From a virus, in IMG/VR virus record IMGVR_UViG_3300027759_000233, positions 1 to 35,263 of that record: DNA of 35,263 nucleotides; one strand, written 5' to 3'. Shown here piece after piece: positions 15,381-28,266 of the stretch (the stretch's first letter is position 1; every line of letters starts with the position of its first letter). The translations under genes were made by a program, and so were the position numbers. Below the pieces are notes generated by a model. It ran no database searches. It was not told where the DNA came from and was given only the letters and a program-made list of their open reading frames with translations.

Positions 15381-16886
15381 TTAGTAGTACGCCACTTTGC
15401 GTTTAAATGGCTTTACTTCGTCTTCTCTGTCGCTGTTTAAACGCAGAAAGCCACCTTGTCGAAATCTTAGCAGAGCCTGACTGGTTGAGTCCACTAAATC
15501 GTCATGGTCGCCATTGGGAAAAGAGGCGCACTCTTCCATGACTTCATCAGCCCAGCGAACGTCAGGACACCACACCATGCCCGAATGAAACAGGTCGGAT
15601 ATAGCGTTTACACGGGCTATCTTATCACTTCCCTTACTTGGTGTGTACTCTGAAACAGGGATTCCCATCTGTCTTAACTCATAGATTAATGGTGCACCTG
15701 CTGCTCGTTTTTCCACAATACAGGTATCAGGATTCCATTCCTTGTACTGGTCATACGCCCTGCGTTTTAATTCTGGGAACTCCATGCGTTCCTTGAGAGC
15801 GTTTAACAAAATGATATTGGCACGGTTCTCGCCATTTTCATTGGGTAGGTAGAAAACGCCCCATGTTGTACAGGCTGAGTAGTCGGCTCGGTTGTTCTTC
15901 TCAAAAGCCGTATCCCAAGACTGGATGGTGTACTCGATAGGGGGAGGATGGTCATCTTCCCATATCTTCCAGTACTCCCGCTTGATAATCGCTCCCTCTT
16001 CGGAAGTAGGATTTTGCTGGTATTGGGCTTCCCACTTACCTACAGGGAGTTCAGCCTTAATAGCATGGAGTTCTTTTTCACTCCAAAATTCGGGCCATAA
16101 GGGTTTTCCGCTAGGCATCAGGGCAGGGAACTCAATCACTTCCCATTCATCTCCATCCCTTTTGGCGGCATTGGCTAAGATTTGTCCAGTCAGGTCTTTC
16201 TTTGACCAGCGGGTCATCACAATGATGATGGCTCCCCCCGGCTGTAGACGCTGGCGAGGACCAGAGTTGTACCACTCAAAGACTCGGTCATAGACTGAGG
16301 CAGTTCCTTGCATGGCTTCTTGCTCGGAGTGTGGGTCATCAATGATAAGAAGGTCAGCGCCTTTACCCGTTACAGCACCGCCCACACCGATAGCGAAGTA
16401 ATCTCCGCCCTTGTTTGTGTTCCAGCGTCCTGCGGCTTTGGAGTCGGTAGATAGTTTGGTGGGGAAGATAGCCTGATAGTCTGGGGTGTTGACCAAGTTC
16501 CTGACTTTGCGACCAAAACCCACGGCAAGTTCTGCGGTATGGGCTGTCTCAATAATTTTCTTCTCAGGGAATCTTCCCAAGAACCAAGCGGGGAGAAGAT
16601 AGGACGCAAACTCCGACTTGGTGTGTCGGGGAGGCATATTGATGATGAGTCTCTTTAACTTTCCTTCGGCTACCCGCTCGAATGCCTCTGCCATATCCCT
16701 GTGGTGTTTGCCGGGAATGAAGGCTGACCACATCTCCCGCACAAATGGCAGGAAGTTGTTGCGGCATCTTTCCTTCTTGTCTTCCCCAAATAGAGCGTTT
16801 ATCTTGGCAATGTTGGGATGGTCAGGCGGCAGGACATCGAGCAGTTCTCGATACTGGGTTATTTCTTTTTGGGTAAGGAGAGTCAC
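15381..16886 (-). CDS. terL: Terminase large subunit
   Basis: A 501-residue packaging motor. The ATPase shows a Walker A-like PPRHTKSE (85-92), Walker B LLIIDDPH (179-186) and a VMTRW coupling segment near 223-227. The C-terminal RNase H-like nuclease shows WDTAF (D325), VEKRAAG (E392) and DHDDLVD (D462-D466). It would cut concatemers and pump DNA through the portal. The start is a GTG overlapping the stop of the HTH gene (GTGA); no strong ribosome site precedes it, so coupling is likely. Confidence 0.92.
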   Translation of the reverse strand: MTLLTQKEITQYRELLDVLPPDHPNIAKINALFGEDKKERCRNNFLPFVREMWSAFIPGKHHRDMAEAFERVAEGKLKRLIINMPPRHTKSEFASYLLPAWFLGRFPEKKIIETAHTAELAVGFGRKVRNLVNTPDYQAIFPTKLSTDSKAAGRWNTNKGGDYFAIGVGGAVTGKGADLLIIDDPHSEQEAMQGTASVYDRVFEWYNSGPRQRLQPGGAIIIVMTRWSKKDLTGQILANAAKRDGDEWEVIEFPALMPSGKPLWPEFWSEKELHAIKAELPVGKWEAQYQQNPTSEEGAIIKREYWKIWEDDHPPPIEYTIQSWDTAFEKNNRADYSACTTWGVFYLPNENGENRANIILLNALKERMEFPELKRRAYDQYKEWNPDTCIVEKRAAGAPLIYELRQMGIPVSEYTPSKGSDKIARVNAISDLFHSGMVWCPDVRWADEVMEECASFPNGDHDDLVDSTSQALLRFRQGGFLRLNSDREDEVKPFKRKVAYY

Positions 16887-17113
16887 AGAGCGGTTACGTG
16901 CTTAACGCTGTTGTCGATGACTTTCATAGAGCGAATCATATGGGGCTTGATATGGAGTAGCCCCCGCTCCCGTAGGCAATGGATGTGTCGGTGGATGTTT
17001 GACTTAGAGCGCATGCCCAGCCCTTGGGCTATCTCAGAGTATGACGGGGAAAAGCCACGCATCTTAATAAATGCTTGGATAAAGTCATAAACCAGTTTTT
17101 GTTTTTCAGTCAT
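16883..17113 (-). CDS. LexA-type winged HTH DNA-binding protein
   Basis: A 76-residue protein equal to the DNA-binding domain of LexA: TEKQKLVYDFIQAFIKMRGFSPSYSEIAQGLGMRSKSNIHRHIHCLRERGLLHIKPHMIRSMKV. The turn-helix SPSYSEIAQGLGMRS-SNIHRHIHCL is clear. The LexA self-cleavage domain is absent and the protein is complete, with GGGGGG(T)G before the ATG. Adjacent to large terminase and some distance from the small subunit, it could regulate late genes or act in packaging-site recognition. Both ideas are inference. Confidence 0.7.
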   Translation of the reverse strand: MTEKQKLVYDFIQAFIKMRGFSPSYSEIAQGLGMRSKSNIHRHIHCLRERGLLHIKPHMIRSMKVIDNSVKHVTAL

Positions 17114-18599: not shown

Positions 18600-19220
18600 T
18601 CAGTTCAGTAGTGACTTAGGTTTGGCTGACTGTAGTAATGCGAGGGATGACTCCAGTTCTTTCTTGAGTGAGTCCACGTTGACCTCTTCCACTTTGCTCT
18701 CTACCTTGTCAGTGAACATGCCAATGGCTCTGCCCATTAGTTCTAACGCCTTGAGTTTGTCACTTGTCCTTTCCCCCGCTCTCTCAGCGTGGTTATACAG
18801 TTCCGACATGATGTGTCTACGTGTGGCTTGGTTGTCAGCAATGACGTTTTCTTTGAGAGTGACCCAAAAAGACTCTAGTAACTGAGTAATTCGTGCATCC
18901 TTCAAAAGTCGGTTCGCATCGCTGACAATTGATGCCTCGCTCATGTTGGAGCAGTCGTAAGCCCTACGATACGCATCGCTTGGTGACATGCCTTGCACTA
19001 TGTTGGATGCGAATGCATGCATCTTTGCAGTCATTCGTTTGTCTTTGCCATTCGTTGACGTTTCGTCTTTGTGTACGCCTCTTGGTAGTCCATTCTTTTT
19101 CTTCTTTACCACTACTTGTGACACAGCAGTCTGTATGTCTACGACATGAGTCCCCGCTCCCTGTGTGCTTGCATCATTCGTGCTTGTAGTGCTTGTCGTT
19201 GTGTGCATGTCTTTTTCCAT
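18600..19220 (-). CDS. Terminase small subunit (probable)
   Basis: A 206-residue protein. A Thr/Ser-rich leader (residues 1-35) precedes a basic stretch (VVKKKKNGLPRGVH). Then comes a small-terminase-like DNA-binding region: MTAKMHAFASNIVQGMSPSDAYRRAYDCSNMSEASIVSDANRLLKDARITQLLESF, where the SPSDAYRRAY and ANRLLKDARI helices are characteristic. A C-terminal coiled coil (SKVEEVNVDSLKKELESSLALL) suits ring assembly. It should bind the packaging site and hand DNA to the large subunit. ATG follows AGGAG at nine bases. It is the first late-strand gene beside the intergenic origin region. Confidence 0.68.
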   Translation of the reverse strand: MEKDMHTTTSTTSTNDASTQGAGTHVVDIQTAVSQVVVKKKKNGLPRGVHKDETSTNGKDKRMTAKMHAFASNIVQGMSPSDAYRRAYDCSNMSEASIVSDANRLLKDARITQLLESFWVTLKENVIADNQATRRHIMSELYNHAERAGERTSDKLKALELMGRAIGMFTDKVESKVEEVNVDSLKKELESSLALLQSAKPKSLLN

Positions 19221-20425: not shown

Positions 20426-20613
20426 TGAGAAAAATTCTCTATGTGCTAAGTCACATTTTGTTTGCATCGGTGTTTTCATCGTTGCTTTGTATCGCACTCC
20501 TTGACTGGATGGGCGGGTGTGGTGAGTCGTTTACACGTGCTGACGGTACGTCCCAAATGGGAGAGTGCATCGGGCGTGAAACCTTTTTCAACTTTTTAGG
20601 AGCATTGCTATGA
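20425..20613 (+). CDS. Small membrane/exported protein
   Basis: A 62-residue protein with an N-terminal hydrophobic segment (ILYVLSHILFASVFSSLLCIALLDWM) and a Cys/Gly-rich outer part (GGCGESFTRADGTSQMGECIGRETFFNFLGALL). The two cysteines could form a disulfide if exported. Start at the repeated GGAGGAAATCTAATG junction; stop overlaps the SprT-like gene (ATGA). Unknown function. Confidence 0.5.
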   Translation: MRKILYVLSHILFASVFSSLLCIALLDWMGGCGESFTRADGTSQMGECIGRETFFNFLGALL

Positions 20614-21206
20614 GTCAACGTGAACCGTGGCTGACCTCTGCCGTGGGCGAATTGCGTCCCATCTTTGAGGCACACAACTTCCCTCTCCCTGAGAAAATCA
20701 GGGTGACCTGTGGGTTTCCCTCCAAGTTCGCACGTGCCATCAACCGTGCTATGGGTGAGTGGCATCCACCATCGTCCTCTGCTGACGGTCACCATGAAAT
20801 CTTCATCTCCCCTGTGGAGTCTGACCCTTGGTCAGTGCTTGGCACACTGGTGCATGAACTCTGCCACTCTGCTACGCCTGACGATGGTCACCGTGGTGCT
20901 TTCCCCGCCCTTGCCAAGAAGATGCACCTAGAGGGCAAGCCCTCTGCCACACGCATCGGCAAGACGTTCAAGGAGGAGTTTGTTTCCATCCTTGACTCTC
21001 TTGGCGAGTACCCACACGCCAACCTAGACGTGACTGCCGACAACAAAACGCAGAGCACACGCATGCTGAAAGTTGTCTGCCCCACATGCATCGAGCACCA
21101 CCCTGACGGCAGAGTCAAGTGGCAGTATTCGTTCCGCATGTCCCAGTACACCGCAGACAAGGGCACACCGACTTGCCCATGCGGTACGCAAACTCAACTC
21201 GCTTAA
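20610..21206 (+). CDS. SprT-like zinc metalloprotein
   Basis: A 198-residue protein with LVHELCHSATPDDGHRGAF: H82-E83-x2-H86 and the likely third ligand H94 in GH. This is the SprT/gluzincin-like motif. The C-terminus carries a zinc ribbon, C157-x2-C160 and C189-x-C191, as in SprT family proteins. Such proteins resemble the SPRTN protease that clears DNA-protein crosslinks. The phage substrate is unknown. It heads the AAA+/VWA cassette, 18 bases before the ATPase gene. Confidence 0.7.
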   Translation: MSQREPWLTSAVGELRPIFEAHNFPLPEKIRVTCGFPSKFARAINRAMGEWHPPSSSADGHHEIFISPVESDPWSVLGTLVHELCHSATPDDGHRGAFPALAKKMHLEGKPSATRIGKTFKEEFVSILDSLGEYPHANLDVTADNKTQSTRMLKVVCPTCIEHHPDGRVKWQYSFRMSQYTADKGTPTCPCGTQTQLA

Positions 21207-21224
21207 TTTTTCGGAGGCTTAACC

Positions 21225-22697
21225 GTGAATATCAAACTCGAACTTTCCAAGTTTTCTACCCCTGTGCTCAACACCGTGCTGACCAACCGTGGCTTGCAGT
21301 TTTACATCGTCAAGAACGATGCGGTTAACGCAGTGGCTGACCTCATCAACAACGGTCTCATCACGTTCGATGAGGTACGCAACACCGTGCCATCACAGGC
21401 ATCTACCCTCGCAACCAATTCCAAGGTTGATGACGAGGTCAAGCAGAAAATCATGCAGACTCAGGCAGACATTGCCTCGACAGTCGAGAGTGTTGCACGT
21501 GTGCAAGACTCAGCGAATCAATTGCTCAATGAACAACGTCAGCAACGCATTGCCAACGATGCAAAGTTCAACGAGATGACTACTCGTTTAAACAACGCAT
21601 TGACCTCGATTCAGGGCGTGGACTACGGCAAAGTCGAGACCGTCATTCGTACTCAGGTCTCCGACTTGTTCGACTCTTTCCGCAAGGTCACACCACGTGA
21701 GGAGGTTGTCGCAATTGCGAATGCCGTACCTAAGACCACTCGCAAGACTGCATTCGAGTTGTTCGGTAACGTGTGCACCTACGAGGAGGGCGGTCAAACG
21801 GTTAATTTTGGGGGGATGGAAATCGAGGTGTGGTCTGACCCTGACGCACCTACGCTAGTCGATGACTACATCTTCAACCCTGAGAATCTGCATCAAACAC
21901 TCATCGCCCTCGATGACAAACTGCCACACAATTCTTGGCTTGCGGGTGAACGTGGCACAGGCAAGAGCGAGTTCGTTTCTCAGGTTGCCTCACGCCTTGG
22001 ACGTAGGTTGTTTCGTGTGAACTTTGACGAGGCAATCGAACGTGCTGAGTTCATCGGGGGTAACACCATCAAGGGCGGTGACGTTGAATGGAAAGAGGGC
22101 GTTATCACTCAGGCGATACAGCATGCGGGTGCAATCATCCTCCTCGATGAGATTGGTTTCGCACGTAGTCAAAACCTCGCAGTGCTCCACGCCCTGTGCG
22201 AACGGTCACCACACCGCTCCATCGTCATCGCTGAGACAGGCGTTCGCATCCCTGTCGCATCGCATGTGGCTTTTTTCTGTGCCGATAACTCGAACGGTCA
22301 CGGTGATGAGTCGGGTAACTTTGACGGTGTGCGTAGCAAGAACACTGCGTTCCTCGACAGGTTCTCTTTCACTATGTCATTCAACTACTTGCCTCACGAC
22401 AAGGAAGTTGAGTTGATTCACAAGCGAACCATGTTGCCCATCGATGCAACCGATGTGATTGTGAAGTTTGCTAACACGGCACGTGAGAAAGCACGTGCGG
22501 GTTTGCTGACTCAGCCACCGTCACTGCGCCAACTGTTCGCATGGGCATCAGCGATACAGAAAGGTTTACCAGTATCGATAGCGTTTAACAACGCCATCGT
22601 CAACAAGTTTCCCGCAGAGTGCGAAAGCGAACTGCGTGGCATCTACTCAGCGACTATCGATGTGGACGCATTGAAGTCATTCTTGGTCAAGCAATAA
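21225..22697 (+). CDS. MoxR/CobS-like AAA+ ATPase
   Basis: A 490-residue protein starting with GTG eight bases after GGAGG. The N-terminal half has a predicted coiled coil (about 68-132) and no known enzyme motif. The AAA+ part shows Walker A GERGTGKS (241-248), Walker B IILLDE (D308-E309), sensor-type FFCADNSNGHGD and RSKNTAFLDRFSF, then a helical lid. It most resembles MoxR/CobS ATPases that work with VWA partners on a metal-dependent or folding task. The downstream HELGH and VWA genes supply that partner. No CobN-like chelatase subunit is in the window, so cobalamin synthesis is not supported. Confidence 0.75.
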   Translation: MNIKLELSKFSTPVLNTVLTNRGLQFYIVKNDAVNAVADLINNGLITFDEVRNTVPSQASTLATNSKVDDEVKQKIMQTQADIASTVESVARVQDSANQLLNEQRQQRIANDAKFNEMTTRLNNALTSIQGVDYGKVETVIRTQVSDLFDSFRKVTPREEVVAIANAVPKTTRKTAFELFGNVCTYEEGGQTVNFGGMEIEVWSDPDAPTLVDDYIFNPENLHQTLIALDDKLPHNSWLAGERGTGKSEFVSQVASRLGRRLFRVNFDEAIERAEFIGGNTIKGGDVEWKEGVITQAIQHAGAIILLDEIGFARSQNLAVLHALCERSPHRSIVIAETGVRIPVASHVAFFCADNSNGHGDESGNFDGVRSKNTAFLDRFSFTMSFNYLPHDKEVELIHKRTMLPIDATDVIVKFANTAREKARAGLLTQPPSLRQLFAWASAIQKGLPVSIAFNNAIVNKFPAECESELRGIYSATIDVDALKSFLVKQ

Positions 22698-22706
22698 GGA
22701 GGTCTT

Positions 22707-23867
22707 ATGCTAGGTATAAACGTCAAACGTGGTGTCGCAACCACCTTGGAGCGTGTGTTCAACGCAAGTGGTGAGCACATGGGTGACCTTGAGGTTCTGT
22801 GGTCAGGCAAGACAGCGGGAATCATCTTTGACCGTAGGAACGGTTACACGAATGCCAAGGTCATCTTCCCCGCCATCGATGAGAAGTCAGACGTGCCACA
22901 CACCACGTTCAACAACCTCATCGGGTACGCACTGCACGAACTTGGTCATGCGTGGTACACCGACAACAAACCGTGGGACAGGGCACGTGCAGAGCACGGT
23001 GCATTCGTTGGTGCTCTCATCAACGGTCTTGAAGACCCTCGCATCGAGCGATGTGTCATCGAGTCAGGACGTGCACCAAACGCACGTGCCTTGTTCGAGA
23101 ACCTTGCGAACTCAGTGCTTGCCAAGGACGGTTACGTTCAGCCTGACGATAAGAAGAACATTCCTTTTCTTCTCGCCATCGAGGGCAGACGTATGAACGG
23201 TTACGACATATGCGTTGACTCCATCGTTGACGCATCGCCTTGGAAGAAAGATATCAAGTGGGCATTGAAGAGGGCACACAAAGCCACCGACACTGCGGGC
23301 ATCGCAAAGATTGCGGTTGAACTGTTTAAACGCCTATCAGAGAAAGAAGAACAGGCGGGTGACGGTCAGGACACAAAGCCTCAACCACCACAGGGTGAAC
23401 CACAGGATGGCGAGGGTCAAGACGGTCAGCCTCAAGACGGTGAGCCACCGCAGACTCAGCCAACCGATGACCCCTCAGATGATGACGGTCAGGACGGCAC
23501 GAACGGTCAGGATGAGGGTGACCCCTCAGACAGTGACGAACAGGGCGATGGTGACGGTTCTGATGGGTCTGACGATGACGATACGAACGGTCAAGACGGT
23601 GACAAGCCAACCGATGGCAACCCGACTGACGGTCAAGACGGTGACCCTACTGAGGGTGACGGTCAGGACGGTGACACATCCGATGAGCCAAGCGATGAGC
23701 CACCCAGTCAGGGCAACGGCAAGTCGGAGTCACTAGAGGGGGGACGTGAGGTAGAACCTAGCGACTTCATCGAGGGTGAACTCGACAAACACTCCACATC
23801 AGTGGACGATAAGAAGAGCAGACCAAGTTTTGGTAAGCCCGAAATTGCAACATTTTCTTGGAGGTAA
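22707..23867 (+). CDS. HELGH metallopeptidase-like protein, acidic tail
   Basis: A 386-residue protein. Residues 70-115 contain ALHELGHAWYTD (H77, E78, H81) and NGLEDPRIER, where E109 is a likely third zinc ligand; this pairing is typical of metallopeptidase-like domains linked to VWA (CobT-like) proteins. Residues about 215-345 are an extremely acidic Asp/Gly/Gln repeat (GQDGD, DGQDG units). The last 40 residues are ordinary. In CobT-like proteins an acidic linker leads straight into a VWA domain; here the VWA is a separate gene. The next gene's GGAGG overlaps this stop. Confidence 0.65.
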   Translation: MLGINVKRGVATTLERVFNASGEHMGDLEVLWSGKTAGIIFDRRNGYTNAKVIFPAIDEKSDVPHTTFNNLIGYALHELGHAWYTDNKPWDRARAEHGAFVGALINGLEDPRIERCVIESGRAPNARALFENLANSVLAKDGYVQPDDKKNIPFLLAIEGRRMNGYDICVDSIVDASPWKKDIKWALKRAHKATDTAGIAKIAVELFKRLSEKEEQAGDGQDTKPQPPQGEPQDGEGQDGQPQDGEPPQTQPTDDPSDDDGQDGTNGQDEGDPSDSDEQGDGDGSDGSDDDDTNGQDGDKPTDGNPTDGQDGDPTEGDGQDGDTSDEPSDEPPSQGNGKSESLEGGREVEPSDFIEGELDKHSTSVDDKKSRPSFGKPEIATFSWR

Positions 23868-23869
23868 TC

Positions 23870-24673
23870 ATGCGTATCACAAAATCAGATGCAGAACGTA
23901 ACTACTCATTCCAGTACAACCGTCAGACTAGCGGGTTAGGTGCGACACGTGCAAACATCATGCGCCTGTTGCGTTCACTCGACTTGGTCTCTTGGTCATC
24001 GTATGAAGAGTCGGGACGTTTAGACCGTAAGGCGTTTACACGCTTTGCCTGTGGTAGCACTGCCATCTTCAGCAAACGCACGTACCAAGAGGCGCAAGCA
24101 TCAGCGGTGTCTATGCTCATCGACTGTTCGGGTTCGATGTCATCCGATGGTTTGATTCAGACTGCGGAGGCGATAGCGATTCAACTGTCACGCATACTCG
24201 ACAAGGCAAACGTTGAGTTCGCAGTCACAGGGTTTCACGGTTCGGAAGACATCGTGGGCAGACACGCCACTGGTGCAAGTGATGACATTGTCATCAGGAA
24301 AGAAGAGCCTGTGCTCATACCGTTCAAGACGTGGCGTGAGTCGATGCAGAAAGCATCAGCCAAGTTGGGTTCGATTAACCAGTGGGCAATGGGTTCTACG
24401 CCTGACTACTCAGCAATCAGTTTGATTCTTGAAGACATCGCCATGCGTGATGAGCAACGCAAGATTGTGTTCTTGCTGACCGATGCAAACGGTTACAACA
24501 AGGAGCACATGCGCCATCTGCAAGACCTAGCAGACCGCCTCAAAATCAAAATCATTGCGATAGGTATCGGACGCACTGACGTGAAGGAATGTTTCCGCAG
24601 TAGCGAGAACGTGACTAGCGTTGACGGTCTCGCATCCACATCGTTCAACAAAATCCTAAAGGAACTGAAATGA
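23870..24673 (+). CDS. VWA-domain protein (CobT C-terminal-like)
   Basis: A 267-residue protein. I chose the ATG at 23870, preceded by GGAGG, rather than a TTG four codons upstream. A full MIDAS metal site is visible: D85-C-S87-G-S89, T177 in MGSTPDY, and D205 in FLLTDANGY. These bind Mg2+ and mediate partner contacts. The N-terminal 60 residues (FQYNRQTSGLGATRANIMRLLRSLD...) resemble the segment just before VWA in CobT-like proteins. It likely works with the ATPase and the HELGH protein as a complex. Confidence 0.75.
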   Translation: MRITKSDAERNYSFQYNRQTSGLGATRANIMRLLRSLDLVSWSSYEESGRLDRKAFTRFACGSTAIFSKRTYQEAQASAVSMLIDCSGSMSSDGLIQTAEAIAIQLSRILDKANVEFAVTGFHGSEDIVGRHATGASDDIVIRKEEPVLIPFKTWRESMQKASAKLGSINQWAMGSTPDYSAISLILEDIAMRDEQRKIVFLLTDANGYNKEHMRHLQDLADRLKIKIIAIGIGRTDVKECFRSSENVTSVDGLASTSFNKILKELK

Positions 24674-24885
24674 CAGGCACTGAGGCATTCGACAAACTCA
24701 TGGACAACTTAGGGGATGCACTGGAGGGAAAGGAGATAAGTGCAGTCATCCCCGCACTTACAACATTGCTTGCACATGCGGGTGTGATGAGCGGGACAGA
24801 ACCCGCCTCACTCATCGCATTCATCGTGACAACCGTCACAAGGGTTTACGGTGACCACGACAACACCGATGAAGTAATTCACTAG
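24670..24885 (+). CDS. Hypothetical protein, 71 residues
   Basis: A 71-residue protein (MTGTEAFDKLMDNLGDALEGKEISAVIPALTTLLAHAGVMSGTEPASLIAFIVTTVTRVYGDHDNTDEVIH), helical with a mildly hydrophobic C-terminal half. The ATG overlaps the stop of the VWA gene (ATGA). Its genomic linkage to the cassette is tight, but no motif connects it in function. Confidence 0.5.
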   Translation: MTGTEAFDKLMDNLGDALEGKEISAVIPALTTLLAHAGVMSGTEPASLIAFIVTTVTRVYGDHDNTDEVIH

Positions 24886-24905
24886 GAGGTTTAAACATGG
24901 AACAA
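24881..24905 (+). repeat. Duplicated translation leader, copy 1
   Basis: A 25-base stretch identical to 25100-25124. It holds ACTAGGAGG, then GTTTAAAC (24889-24896), then the ATG and first codons (M-E-Q). Here the iterated palindrome fills the spacer between ribosome-binding site and start codon. Identity over the leader only suggests recent duplication or spread of the element. Confidence 0.7.
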
Positions 24906-25097
24906 CAAATTGAAATCATGGAAGTTGCACTCGTTGCATTGAGCAATGCAGTATGCAGACAGTACATCGCAGACTCGATGGACATATCCGATGAGGAGTT
25001 GGATAGGTTGCAAAAAACTTTAGAAGAGAAGTTGAGCAATGAGCAAGAGGAGTTCGGTGACGATGGCGAGGTTATCGCACCGTGCATGTTTCGTTAA
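24897..25097 (+). CDS. Small acidic helical protein
   Basis: A 66-residue acidic protein (MEQQIEIMEVALVALSNAVCRQYIADSMDISDEELDRLQKTLEEKLSNEQEEF...), probably two helices, with no recognised domain. It is translated from the GTTTAAAC-containing leader shared with the next gene; both products begin MEQ. The remainder of the two proteins is unrelated, so only the start region was copied. Confidence 0.5.
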   Translation: MEQQIEIMEVALVALSNAVCRQYIADSMDISDEELDRLQKTLEEKLSNEQEEFGDDGEVIAPCMFR

Positions 25098-25099
25098 TT

Positions 25100-25124
25100 A
25101 CTAGGAGGTTTAAACATGGAACAA
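25100..25124 (+). repeat. Duplicated translation leader, copy 2
   Basis: Second copy of the 25-base leader (see 24881-24905), with GTTTAAAC at 25108-25115 between AGGAGG and the ATG of the next gene. Confidence 0.7.
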
Positions 25125-25304
25125 ACAATCAACAAATTTGAAATCATTGAGACACCCGATGGTTACATGATTAATCATCATTGCGACATGGGCGAATATT
25201 TTCACGATGGGTATATTCATGCGCCCGATGGTGACAACCTGTTCGACACGTATCACCAAGCAGTCATAGTTTTAACTCAACACTTACTTAAGGAAATCAT
25301 ATGA
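25116..25304 (+). CDS. Hypothetical protein, 62 residues
   Basis: A 62-residue His/Asp/Tyr-rich protein (MEQTINKFEIIETPDGYMINHHCDMGEYFHDGYIHAPDGDNLFDTYHQAVIVLTQHLLKEII). The clustered His, Cys and Asp could bind metal, but there is no fixed motif. It uses the duplicated leader and overlaps the next gene (ATGA). Unknown role. Confidence 0.5.
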   Translation: MEQTINKFEIIETPDGYMINHHCDMGEYFHDGYIHAPDGDNLFDTYHQAVIVLTQHLLKEII

Positions 25305-25540
25305 AACGCACCATTAAAGTTTTTCTCGTCAAGTCTATTAACGAAAACAATACAGGCGAGGAGGCTATGACCAACCTTAAATTGTTTACCGACACCGATG
25401 AGGCACAGGAGTTTAAACGTGCAATAAAAAGACAAATTCCACATGGTTCTGATGCTGAGTGGGTTGCGGTTGAAGAATTCTTTTTGGACATTGAAATCAA
25501 CATCAATGTCGTTGAAGACAAAATTGAGGTAACAGTATGA
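25301..25540 (+). CDS. Hypothetical protein, 79 residues
   Basis: A 79-residue protein (MKRTIKVFLVKSINENNTGEEAMTNLKLFTDTDEAQEFKRAIKRQIPHGSDAEWVAVEEFFLDIEININVVEDKIEVTV), alternating strand and helix. The GTTTAAAC at 25411-25418 encodes F-K here. Its start overlaps the upstream stop (ATGA) after AAGGAAA. No family recognised. Confidence 0.5.
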   Translation: MKRTIKVFLVKSINENNTGEEAMTNLKLFTDTDEAQEFKRAIKRQIPHGSDAEWVAVEEFFLDIEININVVEDKIEVTV

Positions 25541-25731
25541 ACAAGATTGAATTGCTACGCACCGACAACGGTTGGGTGCTCATCGTCTATAGCATGACAG
25601 GCGTTGTCATCGAGAGTTCTATCTCTCCTGACCTCGACTCGCTCTTGCATCACATCAGTGAAAAATATTCCAACCACGACTCAAGTGTTCGGGATGTACG
25701 TGTTAACACAAAATATTCGGAGGGCGTATGA
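25537..25731 (+). CDS. Hypothetical protein, 64 residues
   Basis: A 64-residue protein (MNKIELLRTDNGWVLIVYSMTGVVIESSISPDLDSLLHHISEKYSNHDSSVRDVRVNTKYSEGV). The first half suggests a beta-hairpin (LLRTDNGWVLIVYS) and the second a helix. It overlaps both neighbours by four bases, typical of this early operon. Unknown function. Confidence 0.5.
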   Translation: MNKIELLRTDNGWVLIVYSMTGVVIESSISPDLDSLLHHISEKYSNHDSSVRDVRVNTKYSEGV

Positions 25732-25901
25732 CAGTAGAAGAAATGAAAGCATTTATGAAAGAAGAAGAACGTATAAAGAATACGCACGACATGATGATTG
25801 AAACAGTGGAGGGTTTTAAAGAACTTCCATTCAGCCAACGTTACGAAATCGCACGTAATGTATCAACAACGTTTAAACGCATCAAGGAGCAACAGCAATG
25901 A
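25728..25901 (+). CDS. Small charged helical protein, 57 residues
   Basis: A 57-residue ORF (MTVEEMKAFMKEEERIKNTHDMMIETVEGFKELPFSQRYEIARNVSTTFKRIKEQQQ). The ATG follows GGAGGG and overlaps the upstream stop, and the end overlaps the next start (ATGA), so the frame fits exactly into the operon. Strongly helical and charged. GTTTAAAC at 25871-25878 encodes F-K. Unknown role. Confidence 0.55.
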   Translation: MTVEEMKAFMKEEERIKNTHDMMIETVEGFKELPFSQRYEIARNVSTTFKRIKEQQQ

Positions 25902-26230
25902 GTACAGGCTACTACCACACGGACGAATCAGCACGTGACACGATTCGGGAGTATCGAGATGGCAATGGGTTCGATACATTCGCAGAGGCTATCGCTGACA
26001 TGCAAGGGTGTATCGATGACCTAGACGATGAGGACAAGAGCGCACTGTGCCACGTTGAGACAACGCCTGAGTTGATGAATGCCTTGTGCAATACGCCACG
26101 CAAATTCATCAAGGCTTGGTGCGTTCAGATTACATGGAGCGATGGCACGGTTGAAGAGAAGACCGATGTCCCACCTCTGACAGACCTAGACGGTTGTATG
26201 GACGAGTGGGAAGAGGAGGCGAACAAGTGA
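25898..26230 (+). CDS. Acidic hypothetical protein, 110 residues
   Basis: A 110-residue acidic protein (MSTGYYHTDESARDTIREYRDGNGFDTFAEAIADMQGCIDDLDDEDKSALCHVETTPELMNALCNTPRKFIKAWCVQITWSDG...). Many Asp/Glu and several Cys; the high negative charge could mimic DNA, but this is only composition. It overlaps genes on both sides. No domain recognised. Confidence 0.5.
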   Translation: MSTGYYHTDESARDTIREYRDGNGFDTFAEAIADMQGCIDDLDDEDKSALCHVETTPELMNALCNTPRKFIKAWCVQITWSDGTVEEKTDVPPLTDLDGCMDEWEEEANK

Positions 26231-26568: not shown

Positions 26569-28266
26569 TTAAAACGCATCGGTGCTCTCGTAGTACGTAC
26601 CAGTTGTTTTGTTGTAACCAAGAGTTGTTTCGCCCTGAGTTCCAATCCAACGATAGCGACACTTCCATACCGCCACTTCCACGTCATTGGACTTCGTGCG
26701 ATGGATGGTCAGACCGCAATCAGCCTTTGCCCACCACGCCATCGAACCTGAGATAGCCATGCCATCAGGACGTGGTAAATCCATGTTTGAGCGGGTTATC
26801 TTGCTTGGGTGAGCAACGAACCATATGTGAACGCCATACGCTTTAGCGAACGCTTGCATGCGTGTCAACATCGATGAGATGAACTCATGCTCTGCCATGC
26901 CTGATTTGTTCTCGATGTAGTTGTATGGGTCAACGACTAAACCACGTATGCCTGTTCTTGCTACTGCTACTCTTGCACGTTCAAGAATGGAGTCAATCGA
27001 TGAGGGTTCTGCGCCTTCGGAATCTAGAAACAGGAAGTGGTTCTCTACCCATTTAAACGCCTCATCCTTATCCGCTTGCGTCATGCGATTGTTGCCCTCA
27101 AAAAATCGCTTTTCTTTGTATATCTCCATCAGGCGTGAGATGTGAATCTCAGGCTGATTCTCGAATGAACAGATGGCGAACTTCCAATCGTGTGCTTTAC
27201 CAAGGTTGACCATCAGTTGGTCTACAAAGTTGGACTTACCGCATGACGGATAACCAGTAACGATAGTCAGTTGACCTTGAGCCACCGTATAGATTTGGTC
27301 TACGTTTGAATATCCTGTGCTCGTTCCTTTGCCAGTACCTTTACCCCATAGGTCGTTTAAACGCTCTTCGAACTTGCTGGCTGACGACAAACCCGCTACT
27401 GGATATGGCTCGGCTTTGGCGATGATGTCTTGGACAACCCACTCACCTTCAGCCAAGAACGCCTCGTTTAAATCCTTGTAGTCGAACTTAGCGATACGGC
27501 ATTTGTCTTTGCCAATACGCCTAGCCAACTCCTCTGCTAACGCCTGTCCCGCTGAATCGGTATCAGTTGCGATGGTTACGTAGGGCACGTCCTTCAACAT
27601 GTCAAAGGCGTTCCATACAAACGTGAACCGCTTATCCTCTGACGCATCTATCTTGCCATCGGTTACCTTCATAGGAGCACCGCTTGGTACTGACAGGACG
27701 TTCTTAATCCCGCACTCGATGAGTGTCAGGGCATCTATCTCCCCCTCAACAATCACTACTGGTAGTGTCTTGTCTACGTTGTCAATCCCAAAAAAGTCAT
27801 GCGCCCCACCCGCATCTTGGGTGAAGTCCTTCGATTCAATCGAGCGGTACTTGGCAGAAACATAGACTCCACCACGGAAGTACGGGAAGCCTATCGCATC
27901 TGTCTCCTTGTTTAAACGCTGAAAGTATTTCTGGGCGGGAAACAATTTCATCTCATCAGCAACCCTCTCCGATATACCACGTGACTTTAAGAAATCGTAA
28001 TGTTGTGGTTGTAACTTGGTGATGACAGGGGGTTGCTTTAATGGAATCACATTCTGCTCCTTGCGGTAAATTGGTTTTTGGGATTTGTTTGGGACGAGAC
28101 CTGAGATACCACAATGGTGACAGTGGTACACCAAGCCTTCGGGCTTGCGGTCTATCTTTAGTTCTTTGAGTTTGAACTTCTTGCGTTCGGGTGAACACAT
28201 GGGACAAATGACACGTTGCGTGTCATCGATGTATAGCGTTTCAATCAGTTCAGCGACTGCATTCAA
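26569..28266 (-). CDS. Bifunctional primase-helicase (T7 gp4-like)
   Basis: A 565-residue replication protein. The zinc-binding domain has C21-x2-C24 and C49-x2-C52 (CPMC, CHHC). The TOPRIM primase core has VVIVEGEIDA (E174) and IATDTDSAG (D235, D237). The RecA-type helicase has Walker A GYPSCGKS (338-345) and a GLVVDPYNYIE Walker B-like segment. It would unwind and prime at the fork, like T7 gp4. The start is TTG, chosen because GGAGGCTTAA precedes it at the right distance and no earlier ATG exists in frame. Confidence 0.88.
   Translation of the reverse strand: MNAVAELIETLYIDDTQRVICPMCSPERKKFKLKELKIDRKPEGLVYHCHHCGISGLVPNKSQKPIYRKEQNVIPLKQPPVITKLQPQHYDFLKSRGISERVADEMKLFPAQKYFQRLNKETDAIGFPYFRGGVYVSAKYRSIESKDFTQDAGGAHDFFGIDNVDKTLPVVIVEGEIDALTLIECGIKNVLSVPSGAPMKVTDGKIDASEDKRFTFVWNAFDMLKDVPYVTIATDTDSAGQALAEELARRIGKDKCRIAKFDYKDLNEAFLAEGEWVVQDIIAKAEPYPVAGLSSASKFEERLNDLWGKGTGKGTSTGYSNVDQIYTVAQGQLTIVTGYPSCGKSNFVDQLMVNLGKAHDWKFAICSFENQPEIHISRLMEIYKEKRFFEGNNRMTQADKDEAFKWVENHFLFLDSEGAEPSSIDSILERARVAVARTGIRGLVVDPYNYIENKSGMAEHEFISSMLTRMQAFAKAYGVHIWFVAHPSKITRSNMDLPRPDGMAISGSMAWWAKADCGLTIHRTKSNDVEVAVWKCRYRWIGTQGETTLGYNKTTGTYYESTDAF

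Follow-up and report, generated by a model that had tools for sequence, protein, structure and literature searches.

The window analyzed here, a virus contig of 35,263 bases that carries tailed-phage genes, terminase and portal among them, contains four open reading frames at 20610–24673, all on the + strand and in the order SprT-like / AAA+ / HELGH-acidic / VWA. On balance, this cassette probably encodes an ATP-driven MoxR/CobS–VWA remodelling machine, which is equipped with a zinc site and an SprT-like protease, and no cobaltochelatase. The linkage of the four genes, the split of a CobT-like protein into two of them and the contrast between its zinc site and cellular CobT are solid as results of sequence comparison, and the function is what we infer from them.

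Gene calls and protein architecture

The four adjacent rightward genes of the preliminary description were recovered at their positions, each preceded by a Shine-Dalgarno-like sequence. Gene 1 (20610–21206, +) encodes a protein of 198 aa matching phrog_6361 (E 1.7e-31), with an HELCH motif at residues 82–86 and H94 (GHRG..F) as the third ligand. H82, E83, H86 and H94 are invariant in the alignment, giving an HExxH site with a distal histidine, and the C-terminus is zinc-ribbon-like (Cys157/160/189). With proteins of Microbacterium/Arthrobacter phages that are annotated as SprT-like proteases it shares 40% identity. The best PDB match of its AF2 model (pLDDT 88.8) was human SPRTN (6mdw, Z 8.9, rmsd 3.2, 99 residues), followed by minigluzincins and, lower down, Wss1. 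With the Pfam family SprT-like (PF10263), 14 of 37 members of the gene 1 family gave matches (E ≤ 0.1), the best having an E of 0.00026; the protein of the window was not among them. HExxH, distal histidine, SPRTN fold and Cys-rich C-terminus are shared with the SprT/Spartan proteases (SPRTN, Wss1) and the phage SprT-like proteins of phrog_6361, from which gene 1 differs by its fixed position ahead of an AAA+/zincin/VWA set.

Gene 2 (21225–22697, +, GTG start behind GGAGG) encodes a 490-aa AAA+ ATPase of the CobS/NorQ/CbbQ (MoxR) type, which matches AAA_5 (E 6e-15) and CbbQ_C (E 9e-7) in Pfam, phrog_249 (E 3e-42) and, in the PDB, CobS (9ujv, E 5e-24) as well as NorQ, CbbQ and midasin. Walker A (GERGTGKS) and Walker B (ILLDE) are intact, as had been noticed at the outset, and across 64 sequences K247, D308 and E309 are kept to at least 97%.

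Gene 3 (22707–23867, +) matches phrog_1576 (28–368) and phrog_459, labelled 'peptidase', and consists of a zincin-like domain (residues ~1–212), an Asp/Glu-rich linker (~210–345) and a conserved C-terminal tail of ~45 residues with GKPxxATFxW. The HELGH zinc motif (residues 77–81, 22935–22949, +) is invariant in a 38-sequence alignment, which bears out the H77/E78 numbering of the preliminary description and, together with HELCH of gene 1, its count of two HExxH proteins. In the same alignment E109, D110, R112 and E114 (NxLEDxRxE) are invariant, and in those sets where the LED motif was detected it lies 32–34 residues from HExxH. The corresponding segment NGLEDPRIE (residues 106–114, 23022–23048, +) is therefore a candidate for the third zinc ligand, the invariant LED presumably supplying a downstream acidic residue. 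Nothing significant came out when gene 3 was searched as a profile against the PDB, when it and related proteins were scanned with Pfam, or when the model was run through Foldseek (E ≤ 0.001). In a structural second look at the N-domain (AF2 pLDDT 93.7) at least 16 of the best 19 matches were zinc peptidases with Z up to 6.5, a range where only a common arrangement may be meant. A zincin-like fold of this domain is consequently moderately supported.

Gene 4 (23870–24673, +) starts at ATG 23870 behind GGAGG, which fits better than TTG 23858. Its product belongs to the CobT_C family (PF11775, 44.6 bits, cut-off 21) and matches residues 468–722 of phrog_1576 (E 7e-26) and CobT in the PDB (21vt, E 6e-4). 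The MIDAS, complete as first described, comprises DCSGS at 85–89, D179 and D205; DxSGS (D85 and S87 being numbered correctly), D179 and D205 are invariant in the aligned relatives.

As the end of gene 3 and the GGAGG serving gene 4 overlap, the boundary between both genes is a real one. Genes 3 and 4 match, in order, the N- and C-terminal parts of the single viral family phrog_1576 (729 aa), and in the junction alignment the break lies after the linker motif of fused CobTs and ahead of their pre-VWA helix, in line with the earlier suggestion of a CobT-like protein split in two. A frameshift or sequencing error as the source of the split was ruled out by its presence in 63/63 distinct relatives and by the Shine-Dalgarno site. 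Genes 2 and 4 hence combine a MoxR/CbbQ-type ATPase having Walker A and B with a neighbouring MIDAS VWA protein, as in MoxR–VWA couples, and genes 3 and 4 present HExxH N-domain, acidic linker and VWA in the order homologous to the viral CobT-like proteins of phrog_1576/459. A DNA-level search for the cassette in a phage collection and a tblastn search with gene 3 gave no match, a promoter/terminator scan yielded nothing above chance and no tRNAs were found.

Conservation of the cassette and of the zinc motif

For the survey of gene neighbourhoods, sets were fetched from viral contigs by a scan with the VWA alignment alone; after dropping loci with identical VWA C-termini 63 distinct sets were counted, among which near-copies remain. 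Four-gene order and CobT-like split are conserved in 63/63 of them with VWA identities down to ~42%, so that the linkage on which the preliminary description depended is well established. HExxH of gene 1 and MIDAS of gene 4 likewise occur in 63/63, and the four genes are contiguous in all sets (median gaps 18 and 8, then an overlap). By comparison, the small genes between terS and primase turn over, each family being found in at most 27/63 sets. In the tree the split cassette forms one clade (SH-aLRT 100), and since the 63 sets share this clade and conserved terS/primase flanks, one origin kept by descent is indicated, not many.

In the window these flanks are a divergent terminase small subunit (18600–19220, −, phrog_51 E 3.9e-15) and a convergent primase/helicase (26569–28266, −, phrog_239 E 3.5e-88). 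Judged by position, strand and length they probably belong to the 214-aa terminase-small-subunit-like family upstream of the cassette in 58/63 sets and to the 562-aa primase/helicase-like family downstream of it in 40/63. Furthermore, a small LexA-like winged-helix regulator (16883–17113, −, phrog_362/3502) adjoins the terminase large subunit, and lysogeny or SOS-type control is possible. Behind the cassette a run of short genes was observed (24670–26230, +), two of which share the leader AGGAGGTTTAAACATGG; the two genes searched, at 24670–24882 and 25898–26227, had no family matches.

Another scan, built around fused CobTs of viruses, returned 68 distinct loci. An SprT-like gene was found in the flanks of 0/68 of these loci and in 0/30 whole viral records with a fused CobT, the same model being positive in 5/5 controls including a distant actinophage. 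Comparing the 63 split sets with the 30 fused-CobT records, the SprT-like gene accompanies the split form only. The extra SprT-like gene, which had been regarded as unusual, is confirmed as present, and its combination with the split belongs to one clade of phages.

The zinc motif, HExxH accompanied by LEDxxIE, reaches far beyond this clade. In gene 3 of the split sets HExxH was found in 62/63, the remaining set showing HEGLGH. Of the fused viral CobTs, 62 had sufficient length for counting; two of these are truncated at the start, and of the 60 with a complete N-terminus 58 carry HExxH and the other two HEAGGH. Apart from the one-residue insertions into the zinc motif, the three deviating proteins (L076 4988–5998, HEGLGH; L248 4900–6867 and L249 4462–6342, HEAGGH) look normal, and they are natural variants useful for studying function. 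CobTs with HExxH, among them those of CRP-810, T5S1, ICP2, Mae-Yong1326-1, SSU5, RHph_Y2_11 and GMA3, span Rhizobium, Gordonia, Microcystis and Roseobacter phages, a vibriophage and a phage-plasmid. The cyanophage 'peptidase' near cobS reads HEVGH...LEDARIE in two phages. In the haloarchaeal virus HHTV-2 (L270 416–2989) gene 2 carries HEVQH, and the VWA domain, together with the acidic linker, is encoded by the next gene. The split of CobT in HHTV-2 probably has a separate origin.

For cellular CobT the picture is the opposite one: 73/76 full-length relatives have no HExxH where it would align. With the viral N-domain profile, the viral GyvdHEagHvrhtd aligns with cellular GFADSFALRLRHHD, in which HExxH is replaced, and the same replacement is seen in the solved CobT 9uka (9uka_G), although the alignment is weak. 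Because the viral profile aligns with cellular CobT at this place, the domain is apparently shared and cellular CobT is devoid of the zinc ligands. As far as the sequences go, the HELGH site can be taken as a general trait of viral CobT homologues that is missing in cellular CobT, a solid conclusion. Since the site is found in all viral lineages examined, its loss in cells is simpler than a gain in viruses, the tree being unrooted.

The three cellular exceptions with HExxH are L145, L167 and L188, of which L145 groups with viral sequence in the tree. L145 (a Neomarinimicrobiota MAG contig) and L109 (a beta proteobacterium MAG contig) carry viral-type CobST or VWA genes; both are probably phage contigs binned with hosts, and they give weak hints as to the host. 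In the bacterial genome L167 (Desulforamulus putei) an HExxH-acidic-VWA protein of 789 aa, of either cellular or prophage origin, was observed with an AAA+ gene ~4 kb upstream, and CobN was not found. The DUF2201 (HExxH–VWA) family is a possible cellular parallel.

Cobaltochelatase and other readings of the function

Phage CobS/CobT pairs are well known, and a split cobT has been reported for HHTV-2 (PMC8651126). Viral CobST was proposed to hijack host CobN (PMC8651126; repeated in PMC13390420), and the 'peptidase' label of viral CobT was called mistaken (PMC8651126; repeated in PMC9503304). Applied to the cassette, gene 2 would be CobS and genes 3 and 4 together CobT, raising the phage's cobalamin supply with host CobN. 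What speaks for it, besides the published proposal (PMC8651126, PMC13390420), is the CobT_C and CobS-like homology: CobS-type AAA+, CobT_C VWA domain and acidic linker are indeed common to the cassette and to aerobic cobaltochelatase CobNST. However, the equivalog models were missed by far (TIGR01650, CobS, 82.7 bits against a cut-off of 558.6; TIGR01651, CobT, 28.3 against 759). Cellular CobT is fused and without HExxH, and cellular CobST forms a clade of its own (SH-aLRT 100), in which the cassette, itself another clade, is not nested. CobN was found neither in the window's own record nor in any of the 21 records with the cassette and the 30 with a fused CobT, some of which may be fragments (positive controls worked), and the large-subunit RNR was absent from the 21 viral records searched, again with working controls. 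Moreover, hijacking leaves the SprT gene unexplained. The absence of CobN has to be read with the finding of CobN in 7/15 bacterial genomes that have a CobT of cellular or viral type, so that CobT without CobN occurs in cells too. Taken together, the zinc motif kept in viruses, the separate CobST clade and the lack of CobN in 51 viral records make the published reading of hijacking and of a mistaken label doubtful on sequence grounds, and for the cassette we rate it as very unlikely. The initial doubt about cobalt insertion, as well as the initial statement that CobN is missing, is thereby corroborated.

MoxR–VWA pairs have been described as peptide-capturing chaperone couples (PMC7159879). 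With NorQ/NorD, CbbQ/CbbO and RavA/ViaA the cassette shares an AAA_5/CbbQ_C ATPase adjoining a MIDAS VWA protein, to which it adds a zincin-like domain and an SprT protein. Such a pair, extended by an SprT protease and by a zinc site that is intact, suggests ATP-driven remodelling with proteolysis. Gene 2 would form the AAA+ ring, the VWA domain of gene 4 would capture a client protein through its MIDAS, and gene 3 would be tied back to gene 4 via acidic linker and conserved C-terminal tail. While the ring pulls, the gluzincin-like zinc site of gene 3 could cleave (or metal-modify) the client, and gene 1, as an SprT/Spartan-like protease, could cut proteins stuck on DNA. Jointly, DNA-bound host or phage proteins would be cleared or inactivated around replication. 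Complex formation, proteolysis, DNA-linked clients and the timing of the four products are all predictions at this stage. DNA-linked clients are favoured because viral cobST pairs adjoin replication genes in unrelated phages (primase/helicase; DNA polymerase and ligase; gp46/47 and gp44/45), a raw observation from phage early regions, which are rich in such genes; we place the clients on or near DNA with low confidence.

HExxH can also bind metal without proteolysis. As in NorQ/NorD or CbbQ/CbbO, ring and VWA protein might therefore act as a cofactor insertase or activase opening a host or phage metalloenzyme, the HELGH domain holding or delivering zinc or another metal. The CbbQ_C match, the PDB matches to NorQ and CbbQ and a metal site next to ring and VWA agree with this, yet HExxH and LEDxxIE are arranged in the manner of a peptidase, an SprT protease is linked and no gene for a metalloenzyme client was seen nearby, which leaves insertion unlikely. 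The SprT-like gene, in turn, could be an independent protease for DNA–protein crosslinks or host takeover that merely adjoins a CobST-like pair in one lineage. Microbacterium/Arthrobacter phages have relatives of it without CobST (the one in Percival lies two genes away from DNA polymerase), the 30 fused-CobT records have none, and general synteny prevails across the 63 sets, which make up a single clade; the contiguity of the four genes in 63/63 sets amid the turnover of the other terS–primase small genes makes us lean against this option, which we still consider a serious one. Highly improbable, finally, is a role in counter-defence, in which the machine would dismantle a host anti-phage complex: MoxR–VWA systems do serve in biological conflicts (PMC7159879) and the module is widespread and accessory-like near early genes, but the cassette belongs to the core of its phage group and is no variable locus.

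Implications for viral CobS/CobT

Viral CobS–CobT pairs (cyanophage cobS/'peptidase', HHTV-2, ICP2, SSU5, Mae-Yong1326-1) share with the cassette the AAA+ and HExxH-acidic-VWA parts in neighbouring genes and, in the records tested, the lack of CobN; HHTV-2 likewise splits the VWA domain off. In contrast to them, the cassette is always split and always led by the SprT-like gene, and its acidic linker resides on the zincin half, that of HHTV-2 on the VWA half. The CobS/CobT-like pair itself was already known, whereas the arrangement of four genes and the difference from cellular CobT are apparently unreported: a search of the open-access literature for phage CobT with MoxR/VWA, with a metalloprotease or with an SprT-like protein found none.

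Tentatively, and with less confidence than in the function of the cassette itself, the 'cobS/cobT' genes of bacterial and archaeal tailed viruses may be seen as distinct ATP-driven zinc-protease machines, of which cellular CobT would be a zinc-less relative; in one clade the protease and its VWA adaptor would have come apart and been joined by a Spartan-like DNA–protein-crosslink protease, giving a four-part machine. In many virome papers viral cobS/cobT is counted among the vitamin-B12 auxiliary metabolic genes, and in cyanophages cobS belongs to the core genes. The zinc motif offers a simple point-mutation handle on the cobalamin hypothesis. Should viral CobT turn out to be a protein machine that depends on zinc and is driven by ATP, these metabolic readings would be wrong and a conserved viral function would await description.
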